NCBI GenBank assembly: GCA_944320975.1
Contig: CALUJM010000004.1
Coordinates: 1-64,000 of the forward strand
Reading direction: 5' to 3'
Source of the DNA: an uncultured Atopobiaceae bacterium
GTDB taxonomy: Bacteria; Actinomycetota; Coriobacteriia; Coriobacteriales; Atopobiaceae
DNA length: 64,000 nucleotides
The notes beneath the pieces were generated by a model. The model did not search any database. It had not been told where the DNA came from and saw only the letters and a list, made by a program, of their open reading frames with translations. Positions 5,947 through 58,970 of this stretch are shown here, piece after piece. The translations under genes were made by a program, and so were the position numbers. Each line of letters starts with the position of its first letter. Position 1 is the stretch's first letter.

Positions 5947-7731
5947 CTACCTCACCTCCTGGGGTGAGACAAACGTACCTGTCCCCACTGTCTCACCGGC
6001 AAACGCGCCCGTCCCCGCCGTCTCGCCGATTGCCGCGACGAGCTCGTCGGTGGTGAGGGGGTCGCCGAGCGCGGGCCAGCCCCGGCGCTCGAGCTCGCGT
6101 GCCACGCGCAGCGAGCGCGGGATGCCGAGGCCGCCCTTCGTGAGGCGTTCCTCGTTCTCGGGCGAGAAGACCTCGCGCGGCGTCCCGACGGCGACGAGGT
6201 GCGACTGGTCGAGGGCGACGACGCGGTCGCAGCGCGCGGCGTCCTCCATCGAGTGCGTGACCTGAACGAGGGTGATGCCCCGCTCGCGGAGGCGCACGAG
6301 GACGCGGCGAAGCATCGCGCGGCCGCGCGGATCGAGGCCGGCCGTGGGCTCGTCGAGGATGAGGACCTCGGGCTCCATGGCGAGGATGCCCGCGAGCGCG
6401 CAGAGGCGGCGCTGGCCTCCGGAGAGCTGGAAGGGGGATGCCTCGCGCTTGCCGGCGAGCCCGACGAGCTCGAGCGCCCGGTTCACGCGACGGCTCACCT
6501 CGTCTGCGGAAAGCCGCAGGTTGCGCGGGCCAAACGCCACGTCCTTCTCGACCGTCTCTGCGAAGAGCTGGCGCTCGGGATGCTGCATCACGTAGCCGAC
6601 GACCCTGCGCACTGCCTTTCGTCCGCGCTTGGTTGAGGTGTCGTTGCCGGCGACGACGATGCGTCCGGAGTCGGGCACCTCGAGGCCGCAGAACAGGCGC
6701 AGCAGCGTCGACTTGCCCGACCCCGTCTGCCCGATGATTGCCGTGGACACTCCGGGCGCGACCTCGAGCGAAACGTCGTCGAGCGCTTGGGCACGCCCGC
6801 TGTACGAGAAGGACGCATGCTCGACTGAGATGAGGTGTCCCATTTGGGGACAGGACGCTTTTGGGACATCGGGCCGATGTCCCAAAAGCGTCCTGTCCCC
6901 AAATGGGACACCGGCAATGGCGTCCACCACGTCCTTCTCGCTGCAGGTCCAGGGAAGGCCGAGGCGCTGGGAGAGGCGTGCGGCAAACGGCACCTCGAGG
7001 CCAAGGTCTGCCAGCTCTGCGCCGCGGGCGAAGACCTCCTCCGGGGTCCCCTCGAGGGCGATGCGCCCGCGGTCGAGGACGATCACGCGGTCCGCCTCGA
7101 CGGCCTCCTCCATGAAGTGGGTCACATGTACGAGCGTGGTGCCCGCCTTGGCGAGCCTGCCCATCACGCGCAGGATTGCGGCGCGGCCGCGCACGTCGAG
7201 CAGCGACCCCGGCTCGTCGAGTACGAGCACGTCGGGCTCCATGGCGAGCGCCCCGGCGATGGCGACGCGCTGCTTCTGCCCGCCCGAGAGGCGGGACGGG
7301 TCGGCGTGCGCATAGTCGTCGAGCGCAACGCGGTGCAGCTCGCGAGTCACGCGGGAGGCGATCTCCTCGCGCGGGAGGCCGAGGTTCTCCGGTCCGAAGG
7401 CGACGTCGTCCTCGACGACGCTCGTTACGATCTGGTCGTCCGGGTTCTGGAAGACGAGGCCCAGGTTGCGCCGGGCGCGGCGATAGGCCTCGAGGTCGGG
7501 GCGCCCGTCTGAGCACACGTGCTCGCCGGCGAGCTCGACCTCGCCTGCGTCGGGGGCGAGAAGCCCGCAGACGACGGAGGCGAGCGTCGACTTTCCGGAG
7601 CCGTTGGCCCCGAGGACGCAGATGCGCTCGCCGCGGGCGACCTCGAGGGAGACGTCGTCAAGTGCGACGACGCCCCCCTCGTAGACGAGGCTCACGTGCG
7701 AGAGGCGTATGGGGACGGCCGCGGAGGTCAC
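5947..7731 (-). CDS. ecfA: Fused EcfA-EcfA' ATPase of the riboflavin ECF module
   Basis: This 594-residue protein carries two complete ABC ATPase domains. The first spans about residues 7-245 (Walker A 'GANGSGKST', signature 'LSGGQKQR', Walker B 'VLVLDEP'). The second spans about 302-540 (Walker A 'GQTGSGKST', signature 'LSGGQRR', 'VLILDEP'). Both lie in the cytoplasm and drive the EcfT/S-component pair. The odd feature is the linker at about residues 274-300: it is encoded by a 79-bp perfect palindrome (6834-6912) that reads through in frame. The C terminus has a degenerate 'ETAGTGAFAGETVGTGTF' repeat. The second ECF operon in this window has a fused ATPase without any palindrome in its linker. 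Confidence 0.93.
   Translation of the reverse strand: MTSAAVPIRLSHVSLVYEGGVVALDDVSLEVARGERICVLGANGSGKSTLASVVCGLLAPDAGEVELAGEHVCSDGRPDLEAYRRARRNLGLVFQNPDDQIVTSVVEDDVAFGPENLGLPREEIASRVTRELHRVALDDYAHADPSRLSGGQKQRVAIAGALAMEPDVLVLDEPGSLLDVRGRAAILRVMGRLAKAGTTLVHVTHFMEEAVEADRVIVLDRGRIALEGTPEEVFARGAELADLGLEVPFAARLSQRLGLPWTCSEKDVVDAIAGVPFGDRTLLGHRPDVPKASCPQMGHLISVEHASFSYSGRAQALDDVSLEVAPGVSTAIIGQTGSGKSTLLRLFCGLEVPDSGRIVVAGNDTSTKRGRKAVRRVVGYVMQHPERQLFAETVEKDVAFGPRNLRLSADEVSRRVNRALELVGLAGKREASPFQLSGGQRRLCALAGILAMEPEVLILDEPTAGLDPRGRAMLRRVLVRLRERGITLVQVTHSMEDAARCDRVVALDQSHLVAVGTPREVFSPENEERLTKGGLGIPRSLRVARELERRGWPALGDPLTTDELVAAIGETAGTGAFAGETVGTGTFVSPQEVR
6834..6912. repeat. 79-bp perfect palindrome inside the ecfA coding sequence
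   Basis: Two 39-bp arms (6834-6872 and 6874-6912) are exact reverse complements around a single central base. Each arm is itself a hairpin, because TGTCCCA pairs with TGGGACA. Each arm contains the GGGGACAGG core seen in the other long palindromes of this window. It lies in frame between the two ATPase domains and adds about 26 residues to the linker. The mRNA would fold into a very stable hairpin in mid-gene. Confidence 0.97.
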
Positions 7732-9536: not shown

Positions 9537-9633
9537 AAACCTCACAGGTAGTGGTACGTACCACAAGCATTAACTAAATTAAAACCAATACTAAGATAAG
9601 ATATTTTTTAGAGAGAAACTACCTGTGAGGTTT
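9537..9633. repeat. 97-bp inverted-repeat element, left copy
   Basis: Arms AAACCTCACAGGTAGT (9537-9552) and ACTACCTGTGAGGTTT (9618-9633) enclose a 65-nt interior that is very AT-rich in a GC-rich genome. Next to the left arm is a small palindrome GTGGTACGTACCAC (9551-9564). Next to the right arm is ATTTTTTAGAG. A second element of the same total length and the same arms lies at 10862-10958, so the pair brackets the gene at 9709. Confidence 0.93.
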
Positions 9634-9708
9634 GTGGGCAGTGCGCCGACGCACGGAAAAGCCAGCGGCCCGGCGTTGCCCGCTCCCCAACCGCCGAGAG
9701 GGGCCGTC

Positions 9709-10824
9709 ATGTACGCCGTCCTGAGTCACGAGTCCGCCTGCGATGCGCTTCGCCTGCTCTATTCTGCCGAGAAGAGCCCGCGGGTTCCGCGCATCCCGCG
9801 GGGCGCGACGCGCCTGGCTCGGGACGTGTGCGTCTCTGGGCAGCGCGCCTTCAAGGCGGCGCACGTTGCGGAGGCTCTCTCCGGGATCGGTCTGACTTCA
9901 CGGCCCGCCGACCTCCTGGTGCCCACACAGACGTCGCGCAGCAACGGCGACGAGGCTCGCTTCCACGTGTGGGGTGGCATCGTCCCGCGGGAATCCCTTC
10001 TGCGCGTGTCGGATAATCTGCTGGTCAGCGGGCCTGAGCTCATCATTGTCCAGCTCTGCTCAACCCAGGGGAAGCTCGATTCTCTTCTCGATGCGCACGT
10101 TGCCGCCGTGCGCGCGGAGGCCGATGTCGTGACAACCCTCGACCGGGAGGCAAAGCAGGTGATCGACCACCCCCTGGAGTGGGAGCGCATCCGGCGCCTT
10201 GTTGCCGCAACGGTAGTTGCCTGCGAGTTTGCCGGCACGTATCGACTGGGCGTCGGGTCCGGAAAGACGGCGTATCATGCCACGCGGCTTCTGGACGCGT
10301 GCAGCCTCGAGCGGGCTATCGCGGAGGTCGGGAAGTCCCAGGGCACGATCCGCGCGCGTCGCGTTGGCGAGCTCATGCTAGAGGGCTCTGCCTCGCCCAT
10401 GGAGACGGCGCTTGCGCTCATGCTGACGCTACCCGTTGACTTTGGCGGCTTTGGGCTCGAACGGCCGCGGCTCAACCAGGCGATCGGCGTGCGGCATCTT
10501 CGCGAGACGCTCTCTGACCGCGATGTCGTGACCCCGGATTTCCTCTGGCAGAACCAGGGAGTTGCGCTCGAGTATGACAGCGCCGAGTTCCACGCAGCTC
10601 GCGGGAAGGGTCAGCTCAGCAGGGACGCAGCGCGCGCAAACATCCTCACGACGGCGGGGTATCGCGTGTTCAGGGTGACGTCGCAGGTGGCGAGGTCTCT
10701 GCCGAGGCTGTCCCTTTTGGCAAGGCAGCTTGCCTGCGCGCTGGACGTCGAGCTGCCCGAGGCGACGCCGCTCCAGGAGCTCCGCCGCCACAAACTCTAC
10801 TTGATGCTGATGCCTCGGGCGTAA
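9709..10824 (+). CDS. Nuclease-like accessory protein with C-terminal PD-(D/E)XK/Vsr-like region
   Basis: I place the start at the ATG at 9709, which follows a GAGAGGGG ribosome site, giving about 371 residues. The frame opens earlier, at a GTG inside the right arm of the flanking repeat, but that start has no ribosome site. The last third has 'DFLWQNQGVALEYDSAEFH' followed by 'ARANILTTAGYRVFRVT'. That pattern of an acidic residue, E-x-D and a downstream strand fits Vsr/DUF559-like endonuclease folds. The N-terminal half is not recognised. It could be an AbiEi-like or orphan nuclease of a defence module. The flanking 97-bp repeats suggest it is accessory. Confidence 0.6.
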   Translation: MYAVLSHESACDALRLLYSAEKSPRVPRIPRGATRLARDVCVSGQRAFKAAHVAEALSGIGLTSRPADLLVPTQTSRSNGDEARFHVWGGIVPRESLLRVSDNLLVSGPELIIVQLCSTQGKLDSLLDAHVAAVRAEADVVTTLDREAKQVIDHPLEWERIRRLVAATVVACEFAGTYRLGVGSGKTAYHATRLLDACSLERAIAEVGKSQGTIRARRVGELMLEGSASPMETALALMLTLPVDFGGFGLERPRLNQAIGVRHLRETLSDRDVVTPDFLWQNQGVALEYDSAEFHAARGKGQLSRDAARANILTTAGYRVFRVTSQVARSLPRLSLLARQLACALDVELPEATPLQELRRHKLYLMLMPRA

Positions 10825-10861
10825 GGTTGCGGCAGGGCTCTTTTTGAGGTGCCGTGCGCGG

Positions 10862-10958
10862 AAACCTCACAGGTAGTGGTTACTACCACATCTAACAATT
10901 TAATCGATATGGCTAACAGTTAGAGAAATTTTTTTGAGTAACACTACCTGTGAGGTTT
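10862..10958. repeat. 97-bp inverted-repeat element, right copy
   Basis: Arms AAACCTCACAGGTAGT (10862-10877) and ACTACCTGTGAGGTTT (10943-10958) are identical to those at 9537-9633, and the length is the same. The first 28 nt differ from the left copy only in the GTGG(TACG/TTAC)TACCAC block. The middle has diverged but stays AT-rich. It starts 37 nt after the nuclease-like gene. Confidence 0.93.
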
Positions 10959-10961
10959 ACT

Positions 10962-11046
10962 GGGCCGAGAAGGACTGTGGGCCGAGAAGGACTGTGGGGC
11001 GAGAAGGGCCGCGGGGCGAGAAAAACGCGCGGCCGAGAAGGACCTC
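10962..11046. repeat. Degenerate 17-nt tandem repeat with GCGAGAAGGAC-type motif
   Basis: Units begin at 10962, 10979, 10996, 11013 and about 11031. The first two are identical (GGGCCGAGAAGGACTGT) and the next ones keep G(G/C)CGAGAAG. The last unit is part of the terminator stem. The core motif GAGAAGGAC also recurs singly in many other intergenic gaps of this window. Confidence 0.75.
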
Positions 11047-11062
11047 GGGCCGCGCGTTTTTT
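11021..11062. terminator. Bidirectional terminator between convergent genes
   Basis: The stem ACGCGCGGCC / GGCCGCGCGT is flanked by AAAAA on the left and TTTTTT on the right. It can therefore end the UPF0210 transcript from the right and any read-through of the nuclease-like gene from the left. The loop contains GAGAAGGACCTC. Confidence 0.85.
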
Positions 11063-20751: not shown

Positions 20752-23243
<2,492 letters not shown>

Positions 23244-23244
<1 letters not shown>

Positions 23245-23338
23245 ATTGGGGACGGGTTATTTCGCGCAGACCGGTTGGGACAGGTTTGTCCATCAAACCT
23301 GTCCCAACCGGTCTGCGCGAAATAACCCGTCCCCAATT
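23244..23338. repeat. 95-bp palindrome, 45-bp perfect arms
   Basis: Arms 23244-23288 and 23294-23338 are exact reverse complements around a 5-nt loop. Each arm holds two core units in a row: AATTGGGGACGGGTTATTTCG then CCGGTTGGGACAGG. It begins on the stop codon of the UvrA-like gene and ends just before the nth stop, between convergent genes. Confidence 0.97.
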
Positions 23339-23349
23339 AGCAGAAAACC

Positions 23350-28538: not shown

Positions 28539-28655
28539 CTGCCGGTTGGGGACGGGTTCTCTGCCAATTGGGGACGTGTTATTTCGTGCAGACGCTTTCC
28601 GTCTGCACGAAATAACACGTCCCCAATTGGCAGAGAACCCGTCCCCAACCGGCAG
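28539..28655. repeat. 117-bp palindrome, 56-bp perfect arms
   Basis: Arms 28539-28594 and 28600-28655 are exact reverse complements around the 5-nt loop CTTTC. Each arm contains two tandem units that begin alike: CTGCCGGTTGGGGACGGGTT and CTGCCAATTGGGGACGTGTT. It fills the gap between thpR and the convergent recQ and has no T-tract. Confidence 0.98.
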
Positions 28656-38614: not shown

Positions 38615-38731
38615 GGGCGCGTGACAATCAGGGCGGGCGTGACAATTAGGACAGGTTGGATTGTCACATCGAGGGCATGTGACAATCCAACCTGTCCTAA
38701 TTGTCACGCCCGCCCTGATTGTCACGCGCCC
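38615..38731. repeat. 117-bp palindrome, 55-bp perfect arms (GTGACAATTAGGACAGGTT type)
   Basis: Arms 38615-38669 and 38677-38731 are exact reverse complements around a 7-nt loop. Each arm has two units, GCGTGACAATCAGGGCGG then GCGTGACAATTAGGACAGG, and the second is itself a hairpin (GTGACAAT / ATTGTCAC). It lies between degV and the convergent tetR gene. Sibling copies are at 44196, 49184 and 50587. Confidence 0.97.
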
Positions 38732-44195: not shown

Positions 44196-44265
44196 GTGAC
44201 AATTAGGACAGGTTGGATTGTCACACCGCCCGCGGTGTGACAATCCAACCTGTCCTAATTGTCAC
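44196..44265. repeat. 70-bp palindrome, 34-bp perfect arms (GTGACAATTAGGACAGGTT type)
   Basis: Arms 44196-44229 and 44232-44265 are exact reverse complements around CC. Each arm is itself a hairpin (GTGACAAT / ATTGTCAC). It lies between the FtsX stop and the convergent ABC ATPase stop. Confidence 0.97.
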
Positions 44266-47506: not shown

Positions 47507-47536
47507 GGAATCCGGAGCCGTTTTTCGGCCGCTCTC

Positions 47537-47661
47537 ATTTGTAGGGTACTATTTGGGAGAACCTGTAAGTACCCTACAAATTAGCAATGGTATCTACCTG
47601 CAGTTTTATGCGCGTGTATTTGTAGGGTACTTTGCCAAAATGAAATAAAGTACCCTACAAA
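47537..47661. repeat. Tandem pair of TTTGTAGGGTACT hairpins
   Basis: Four copies of TTTGTAGGGTACT alternate in orientation: first hairpin 47537-47550 / 47568-47581, second 47619-47633 / 47647-47661. Outer copies can also pair with each other. The 37 nt between them contain CCTGCAGTTTTA. The element fills the gap between the convergent mntP and engB genes. Confidence 0.93.
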
Positions 47662-47684
47662 CGAAGGCTTCCGATTCCGAGCCT

Positions 47685-49183: not shown

Positions 49184-49266
49184 GGGGCGTGTGACAATTA
49201 GGACAGGTTGAATTGTCACGCGCTCGCGTTGTGACAATTCAACCTGTCCTAATTGTCACACGCCCC
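49184..49266. repeat. 83-bp palindrome, 36-bp perfect arms (GTGACAATTAGGACAGGTT type)
   Basis: Arms 49184-49219 and 49231-49266 match exactly around an 11-nt loop. After the shared GTGACAATTAGGACAGGTT the arm reads GAATTGTCAC, where the siblings read GGATTGTCAC or CGATTGTCAC. The change is mirrored in both arms. Confidence 0.97.
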
Positions 49267-49277
49267 AGCCAGCGGGA

Positions 49278-50528
49278 TCAGCTGCGGAGAAGGGCGTCCA
49301 CGAGCTCGTTGTCCTCGGGATCGGGCGAGCCGAGCGGCAGGCCGCAGGCCTCAAAGAAGTGGCTCCCCGCAAACTGGCGCGCGCGGAAGGTGCCGTGTGC
49401 GCCGTCGCTGAGGTAGCGCACGCGCGAGAGGCAGTCGGTGGTCGCGCAGTAGAGCACGCCGTGCTTCTCGGCATAGCGGAGATAGGTCTCGTCGTCGGAC
49501 CAGAGGGTCACTCCCGCCATGTTCTCGAGCTCGTAGGCCACGGCGTATTCCTGCCAGGGGATGTCGCGCTTGCGAACGTAGTGATCGAGCAGCGTCGCCA
49601 TGCGCTTTACGCGACTGAGCGTCGCCGCAGCGTCGATAAGGCGCGCCCCCTCGGCGGGCGGGAAGAGCGCGCGGCGCGTCATCGTATCAAGCGCCCGGTC
49701 ACGCTCGGCTCCTTCGAGCAGAACGGCCGGCACGGAGAGCTTCATCGACTCGTTGGGGAAGAGCTCGATCGCGGAGTGCGGCACCACGGTCTCGTCGCGC
49801 GCGGGGATGCGAAAGACGAGGCTGTCGTGGGCATGCTGGATGCGGCAGTCAAGTCCGCGCTGCCCGAACGCCGCGCGCATCGCGACCACGGTATCGTTTG
49901 ACCGGTCGCGCGAGAAGGCCTCCTCGGAGTCGCGCCCCATCCTGAAGAGGTAGAGGTTGAAGAGCGGCAGCTCCCTGCGACGGGCGTCGGGCATGGGGTA
50001 GTAGACGGTGCGCTGGCAGAAGGCCCGTACCTCGAGACGGCGGCGGGTCGCCTTGTCGTAGAGGTCAACGAGCGCGGTGCCCGCGGCCGGCCCTGACGTC
50101 GAACCCTCGCGAATCTCCACGATGCCGTCGGCCACATAGGGCGGGAAGTCTCCCTCGAGGACCTGCACCAGGATGGCGCCCTGCTCGGGGTTGGCGGGGT
50201 CGGGCAGGAAGCGCGCGGCAAAGCGCGGCGCGGGAGAGACGTGGCGCCGGCAGAGCTCGCCGATGATCTGGCTCACGTCGGCCCCGGGGCGGGGCACGGG
50301 GCACACGTCCTTCTCGGCATCGGAGACGCCTATGACGAGCCAGCCGCCGCGCGAGTTGGCAAACGAGGCCACGATCTTGGGAATCTTGCGGCGCACGCTG
50401 GGCGAGAAGGTCTGCTTGAGTTCGAGGGCAAAGCCCTCCTCGAGGTCGCGCAGCTGCTCGAGGTCGGCGTAGTCGACCTCGCCGATCGTTTTGGGCGTGC
50501 CCTGCTCGCTGCGGAAGGGGCTGAACAT
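49278..50528 (-). CDS. AlbA_2 (Schlafen-like) domain protein
   Basis: This 416-residue protein has an N-terminal AlbA_2 nucleic-acid-binding/ATPase-like domain: 'LEEGFALELKQTFSPSVRRKIPKIVASFANSRGGWLVIGVSD' at about 28-70, then 'PPYVADGIVEIREGSTS' near 128. The C-terminal 250 residues are not recognised. Such proteins often act as regulators or in phage defence; here no partner gene is adjacent. It ends at one palindrome and starts near another. Confidence 0.78.
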   Translation of the reverse strand: MFSPFRSEQGTPKTIGEVDYADLEQLRDLEEGFALELKQTFSPSVRRKIPKIVASFANSRGGWLVIGVSDAEKDVCPVPRPGADVSQIIGELCRRHVSPAPRFAARFLPDPANPEQGAILVQVLEGDFPPYVADGIVEIREGSTSGPAAGTALVDLYDKATRRRLEVRAFCQRTVYYPMPDARRRELPLFNLYLFRMGRDSEEAFSRDRSNDTVVAMRAAFGQRGLDCRIQHAHDSLVFRIPARDETVVPHSAIELFPNESMKLSVPAVLLEGAERDRALDTMTRRALFPPAEGARLIDAAATLSRVKRMATLLDHYVRKRDIPWQEYAVAYELENMAGVTLWSDDETYLRYAEKHGVLYCATTDCLSRVRYLSDGAHGTFRARQFAGSHFFEACGLPLGSPDPEDNELVDALLRS

Positions 50529-50586
50529 GGGACCTCCTCGCCTGCGCCGGTTGTTGCCCTATTGTCTCACGTTCCTCTTATCCGGC

Positions 50587-50669
50587 GGGGGATGTGACAA
50601 TTAGGACAGGTTCGATTGTCACATAGGGACGATGTGACAATCGAACCTGTCCTAATTGTCACATCCCCC
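50587..50669. repeat. 83-bp palindrome, 38-bp perfect arms (GTGACAATTAGGACAGGTT type)
   Basis: Arms 50587-50624 and 50632-50669 match exactly around a 7-nt loop. The internal hairpin stem is GTGACAAT / ATTGTCAC, and the variable dinucleotide after GGTT is CG. It lies upstream of the AlbA_2 gene and downstream of helD. Confidence 0.97.
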
Positions 50670-58827: not shown

Positions 58828-58970
58828 GGGCATTCAAAAAGGGACGGGTGCAGAGCCCCAGTTTAAACCTGTCAAAAGTGAGTCACTTTTGACAGGTTTA
58901 AACTGGGGCTCTGCACCCGTCCCTTTTTGAATGTAACTGGGGCTCTGCACCCGTCCCTTTTTGAATGCCC
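58828..58970. repeat. Compound palindrome with duplicated right arm
   Basis: Arms 58831-58881 and 58883-58933 are a perfect 51-bp inverted repeat around one base. Each contains AAAAAGGGACGGGTGCAGAG and, nested inside, CCTGTCAAAAGTGA. The outer half of the right arm is then repeated directly at 58937-58967, ending in GCCC that pairs with the GGGC at 58828. The order is A-B-B'-A'-A'. It separates the deacetylase gene from the convergent pyrE. Confidence 0.95.

Follow-up and report, generated by a model that had tools for sequence, protein, structure and literature searches.

The gene analysed here encodes a nuclease-like protein and lies between two palindromic elements in a 64,000-nucleotide stretch of Atopobiaceae DNA, which we call the window. 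This locus is best read as a member of a system that resembles the REPtrons and is built on a non-HUH nuclease, a reading to which we give a probability of roughly 0.55. We observed, in gut bacteria related to Olsenella, that many genes of this nuclease family are bracketed by palindromes, that cognate copies of the palindromes are scattered through the genomes, that the arms match within genomes and differ between them, and that the elements have a fixed length. We infer that each nuclease recognises its own palindrome and, with less certainty, that it has spread it at least once.

The element pair and the bracketed gene

The first-pass annotation had described two elements of exactly 97 bp, with identical 16-bp arms, around a single gene, and this was confirmed (Table 1). 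The arm AAACCTCACAGGTAGT and its complement are exact at all four ends of the pair (17 bp in the right element). The 64-kb window contains four exact arms, whereas shuffled sequences gave a mean of 0.13 with up to three mismatches allowed. All 16 arm positions pair in both elements, a pairing too perfect, and too free of extrahelical bases, for an integron attC cassette, which was rejected as a candidate. The similar ends and diverged AT-rich middles of the same description also held: left and right elements are 90% identical over the first 29 nt and 86% over the last 35 nt, with a core identity of 0.42. In a sister species the cores are kept by side (0.89 for left to left, 0.92 for right to right). 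Both elements are oriented as the gene that they bracket and, sharing one orientation, they are direct repeats.

Table 1. Features of the nuclease-like locus (positions in the window).
Feature	Position	Strand	Remarks
Left (upstream) 97-bp palindromic element	9537..9633	+	Arms 9537-9552 and 9618-9633; inner hairpin GTGGTACGTACCAC at 9551-9564; AT-rich core; T-run
Nuclease-like gene	9709..10824	+	371 aa from ATG; 399 aa if begun at the in-frame GTG (9625) within the left element
N-terminal, AbiEi-like half (lead)	9709..10377	+	VIA-align Z 7.2 over 120 residues to 6y8q; next unrelated row 4.8
C-terminal nuclease domain, residues 229-347	10393..10749	+	Predicted Vsr/EDxHD fold; family-invariant S229, P230, E232, D277 and H295, near-invariant E288
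Right (downstream) 97-bp palindromic element	10862..10958	+	Same orientation as the left element

Three further details of the immediate surroundings were recorded. The in-frame GTG falls within the right arm of the left element, and a start there would add 28 codons (9625-9708). Three species share identical DNA directly 3' of the left element, whereas their element cores differ. Directly downstream of the right element come a 17-bp tandem-like repeat (GGGCCGAGAAGGACTGT) and, after it, a GC-rich hairpin with a T-run (10945-11061).

A Vsr/DUF559-type nuclease had been suspected in the C-terminal half from the sequence, and the predicted fold upholds this. Pfam matches to this half were sub-threshold (MTES_1575, E 6e-4; DUF559, E 0.016), the protein scoring below the curated cut-offs of both REase_MTES_1575 (PF18741; 20.2 of 38.2 bits) and DUF559 (PF04480; 15.5 of 20.6 bits). 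These were the only resemblances shown by Pfam, with none to the HUH/Y1 transposases (PF01797). An AlphaFold2 model was built from 62 family members (mean pLDDT 87.9), and its residues 229-347 superposed on all 97 residues of the I-Bth0305I structure 3r3p (Z 8.5, rmsd 2.4) and on Vsr (1cw0, Z 6.3). The best sequence-profile match, weak (E 0.016) and independent of the fold comparison, was to the same I-Bth0305I chain. In addition to the invariant residues of Table 1, G247 and N256 are invariant across the 62 family members. The model thus supports a Vsr/EDxHD nuclease fold for the C-terminal half. This domain resembles DUF559, REase_MTES_1575 and Vsr proteins in sequence and predicted fold; the window protein differs from them in its AbiEi-like N-terminal half and in its dedicated palindromes.

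The modelled likeness of the N-terminal half to AbiEi, the antitoxin of a type IV toxin-antitoxin system, is a lead, since Z values below 8 can reflect chance arrangements. The binding sites of AbiEi proteins are paired inverted repeats in their own promoter (PMC7319586), and the domain with which these proteins bind DNA is a winged helix. The match is to the C-terminal domain of AbiEi and not to this winged helix, and no DNA-binding motif was identified in the window protein. The locus also differs from AbiE systems in having no AbiEii toxin as a neighbour (murB and DUF711 in all carriers) and in the fusion of this half to a nuclease domain.

Orthologs and the murB-DUF711 site

Orthologs of the window gene were found in 13 of 31 congeneric species, many of whose genomes are drafts, with 51-97% identity and with hosts in Atopobiaceae, Olsenella and Thermophilibacter. 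In all 13 carriers the gene lies between murB and a DUF711 gene. Among carriers, identity is 84-99% for murB and 95-99% for the DUF711 gene; the neighbours being far more conserved, the nuclease gene evolves much faster. The element pair brackets all 12 orthologs for which both flanks are available. The thirteenth ortholog, that of G003, is truncated and retains the right element alone. Elements were present in 13/13 genomes with the gene and absent from 11 of the 18 without it (p 4e-4), several species retaining elements without the gene. The 12 testable orthologs, together with the pairs found at over half of the genus's family loci, strongly support the first proposal in so far as it treats the gene and its paired elements as a single unit.

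The earlier proposal went further and took the locus for a cassette or defence-gene slot, with cargo exchanged through recombination between the two elements. As direct repeats, the elements could indeed recombine, and an empty site of the predicted kind was found in one species, G015, whose murB-DUF711 junction holds exactly one element and no gene. From its core, which has an identity of 0.68 to the right element of the relative G024 and 0.37 to the left, this element descends from the right-hand one, and loss through the direct repeats is the simplest reading of G015. The exchange of cargo fared otherwise: among the 31 species no alternative cargo was seen between these elements at this site, the 13 carriers hold only orthologs, and the locus is co-linear in every one of them. 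No PADLOC or NCBIfam defence-family model matched the window gene either, and its identification as a defence gene was set aside. The cargo-exchange reading is already largely refuted, and we consider it very improbable.

The expectation that such pairs flank other genes was borne out once, elsewhere in the genome of G003, and never at the murB-DUF711 site: two elements of the same superfamily (L344, 844-942 and 2094-2192) flank a gene for a VanZ-like membrane protein, outside the nuclease family. At the murB-DUF711 site itself, several other gene-less species have no element of the 97-bp family, and two (G020 and G007) have an element of a different palindromic family. For the window lineage, the picture is now one of an old, mostly vertically inherited system more than of one still on the move.

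Scattered elements, paralogs and the co-change of arms and protein

Searches of the window's own genome (G000) by pattern and by model gave 21 matches to the arm with at most two mismatches, and none to a reversed-order control. These arms pair into 11 elements, the two of the window included, of which ten are 96-98 bp long and one 87 bp; this dispersal ruled out the reading of the elements as a local pair. Their consensus runs from AAACSTCACAGGTAGTGGTACGTACCAC through a variable AT-rich stretch of about 38 bases to ATTTTTTTGAGTNASACTACCTGTGASGTTT; length is near-constant and the core variable. The bases preceding the arm vary among copies, AGGTAGT falling within the arm. At the element ends we found no target-site duplication and no flanking bases in common among the G000 copies, such as would mark a DDE insertion sequence or MITE. 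A bias of orientation relative to the upstream gene was considered and dropped, several sites being convergent (and uninformative) and one tandem site reversed. No recent insertion of the 97-bp family was recognised, every hand-paired dispersed element of G000 having a counterpart in G017. At the ogt-flavodoxin site the element is present or absent depending on the species; the flanks there are too diverged for an insertion junction to be defined.

Nearly all G000 elements lie 3' of a gene, 30-160 nt past the stop codon, and the arms show compensatory changes, with four pairs in which both partners are altered (15 cells, where shuffles gave 5.9). Both observations would suit an element acting at the RNA level, as a 3'-UTR terminator or stabiliser whose link to the nuclease is secondary. 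We consider this improbable: a search of Rfam with the element returned nothing at gathering score, and an RNA role leaves unexplained why species-specific arm versions are tied to the nuclease gene.

This tie was seen first among the orthologs, which carry clade-specific arms (AAACCTCACAGGTAGT, AAACCTAGCAGGTAGT, AAACCTCGCACCTAGT, AAACCTCACAGGTGGT and AAACTCCACACGTGGT) that agree exactly or nearly between the left and right of a given gene. Most scattered elements bear the arm version of their own genome. When the arms of 42 scattered elements from eight genomes, entered by hand, were compared with the brackets, they were nearest to their own bracket arm to a degree that none of 10,000 shuffles equalled, and their own labelling was the best of 24 clade permutations. 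One genome, G008, is an exception, two of its five scattered elements bearing arms of another clade. Arms are specific to each gene, and across the 50 bracketed loci of the family their similarity was correlated with protein identity (Mantel r 0.53, or 0.40 for the 40 non-orthologs; p 2e-4), the correlation in the non-orthologs being driven mainly by pairs above 50% identity.

Coevolution of arms and protein is equally at home in the main rival to our reading, which we regard as unlikely. There, the palindromes would serve as operators or self-recognition sites for the protein, itself either a regulator that binds DNA or a nuclease of defence; the gene would be autoregulated through its bracket and neighbouring genes controlled through the scattered copies, with nothing mobilised. 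The AbiEi-like half fits such a role, AbiEi proteins being known to bind inverted-repeat pairs in their promoter (PMC7319586), and the left element ends 75 bp ahead of the nuclease start codon. However, most scattered copies lie at the 3' ends of genes rather than at promoters, a scan of the region for sigma-70 promoters gave no match, so that a promoter within the element was rejected, and operators leave both the downstream copy of the bracket and the spread to species-specific sites unexplained. An alternative in the first-pass annotation, that the elements are boxes bound by the gene product, comes close to the REPtron-like reading that we prefer, to which the latter adds dispersal.

The REPtron-like reading extends to the paralogs of the window gene, of which there are about 7-13 per genome. 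The ortholog alignment served as query for the profile search, the 62-member alignment being too diverse. Each family locus was scored for a left-flank hairpin, a right-flank hairpin and the agreement of their arms, 36 of 42 being a pass. Matched hairpin pairs were found at 50 of 86 family loci; among 102 control ORFs of those genomes, one passed (Fisher 6e-21). About 42% of the genus loci had no matched pair at this threshold. Excluding the 13 window orthologs left 40 of 73 loci bracketed (4e-18). Elsewhere in the Coriobacteriia (Gordonibacter and lineages from termite guts among them), the counts were 16/65 loci and 0/32 controls (p 0.001), bringing the controls to 134 ORFs in total. All three further bracketed paralogs that were tested have scattered cognate arms. 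In G000, the arm GAGGGTATGTACACC occurs 77 times (control, 0) and ACACCCGTCATTT 13 times (control, 0), all complete pairs of the latter spanning 46 bp. In the single-contig genome G026, CGACCATACCCGAACGC gave 25 arms (control, 1) and 11 elements of exactly 65 bp each. Length is therefore fixed, at 46 or 65 bp, in two of the three families. Viral contigs yielded no relative and no exact core.

Could the palindromes be ordinary REPs or MITEs mobilised by a different enzyme, a RAYT for example, the nuclease genes merely sitting in element-rich intergenic DNA? Y1 transposase genes are present in 28 of the 31 genomes, and a different type of REP-like repeat is frequent here. Against this, matched brackets are rare around other genes (1/102), arms track the version of the nuclease, and G026 has no Y1_Tnp match and yet holds at least 11 cognate 65-bp elements, so that no RAYT now in G026 can be the mover of that family. 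This explanation appears very improbable to us.

Several other repeats were noted in the window. Long perfect or near-perfect palindromes with arms of 39-56 nt and tiny loops lie at 28539-28655, 58831-58933, 23238-23344 and 6834-6912; several contain GGGGACGTG or GGGACAGG motifs, and they are likely REP-type repeats. Palindromes of the GACAATTAGGACAGGTT kind are present in G000 (L417, L419) and missing from the same sites of G017 (L418, L420), REP-like repeats having apparently been gained or lost there recently. Counting both strands, the window has 40 copies of the motif GAGAAGRAC, against 1.3 expected under a second-order Markov model, and in related loci the motif recurs intergenically and inside palindromic elements. 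The 150-bp element at 47525-47674 (inverted arms of 26 nt, loop of 98 nt) may represent another family of the same kind. Two copies of another palindrome (TGTGACAATTAGGACAGGTT...; 49184-50669) flank a gene on the minus strand (49278-50528) for an AlbA_2-type-looking protein, which is the sole control ORF with a matched bracket (1/102); further copies lie at 38615-38731 and 44196-44265.

Comparison with known systems and a possible mechanism

In REPtrons, a RAYT gene lies between two cognate REP palindromes, copies of which are scattered between genes; protein and palindrome change together, and complementary changes preserve the palindrome (PMC2817692, PMC8266576). The present system shares the bracketing of a gene by two cognate palindromes, the copies in intergenic DNA, the co-change of protein and palindrome and the complementary changes, and the gene itself likewise behaves as vertical. 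It differs in its enzyme, predicted to have a Vsr/EDxHD-type fold whereas TnpAREP/RAYT proteins are HUH/Y1, and in its elements, which are about 46-130 bp long, mostly with long loops, whereas REPs measure 20-50 nt. No GTAG tetranucleotide precedes the palindrome here, several paralogous nuclease-palindrome pairs coexist in a genome, and the brackets of the window family are direct. With the arrangement matched and the enzyme non-HUH, the system would work like a REPtron without being one.

I-Bth0305I, which the predicted catalytic domain resembles in fold, is an EDxHD homing endonuclease that acts as a dimer on a very long target of near 60 bp (PMC3943268), and the predicted likeness covers the whole of its solved domain. 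Unlike such endonucleases, the window gene belongs to a bacterial chromosomal multigene family and is not in an intron or intein; it is intergenic, its presumed target is uninterrupted, with an intact element on each side, and intact presumed targets remain in the genome.

The nuclease protein probably recognises its cognate arms. It might read them as a dimer that spans both arms, or in the form of an extruded hairpin; by analogy with the dimeric, long-target I-Bth0305I, two arms some 80 bp apart might be read by one complex. The nuclease would then nick or cut the element, which would be copied or moved elsewhere between genes. Through the bracket, the gene would stay linked with its own substrate, and the direct repeats could permit loss or movement of the gene. 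That the nuclease drives the dispersal of the element is less certain than recognition, falling a little short of probable. We extend the proposal to all Coriobacteriia more tentatively still: AbiEi-Vsr/EDxHD fusion nucleases, with many paralogs per genome, may each be bracketed by, and disperse, their own coevolving palindrome of fixed length, independently of HUH transposases.

Searches of the open-access literature on DUF559 combined with inverted repeats or AbiEi, and on related subjects, turned up no account of such a system. The origin of scattered palindrome families is an old question for which, to our knowledge, there has so far been one main enzyme answer, the HUH protein TnpAREP. 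If our reading is true, an unrelated nuclease fold with the same arrangement would mean that this arrangement arose by convergent evolution, and a function would be suggested for a large set of uncharacterised DUF559/MTES_1575-like proteins. The many natural pairs of protein and target, several per genome, would also provide material on how nucleases and their DNA targets change together.
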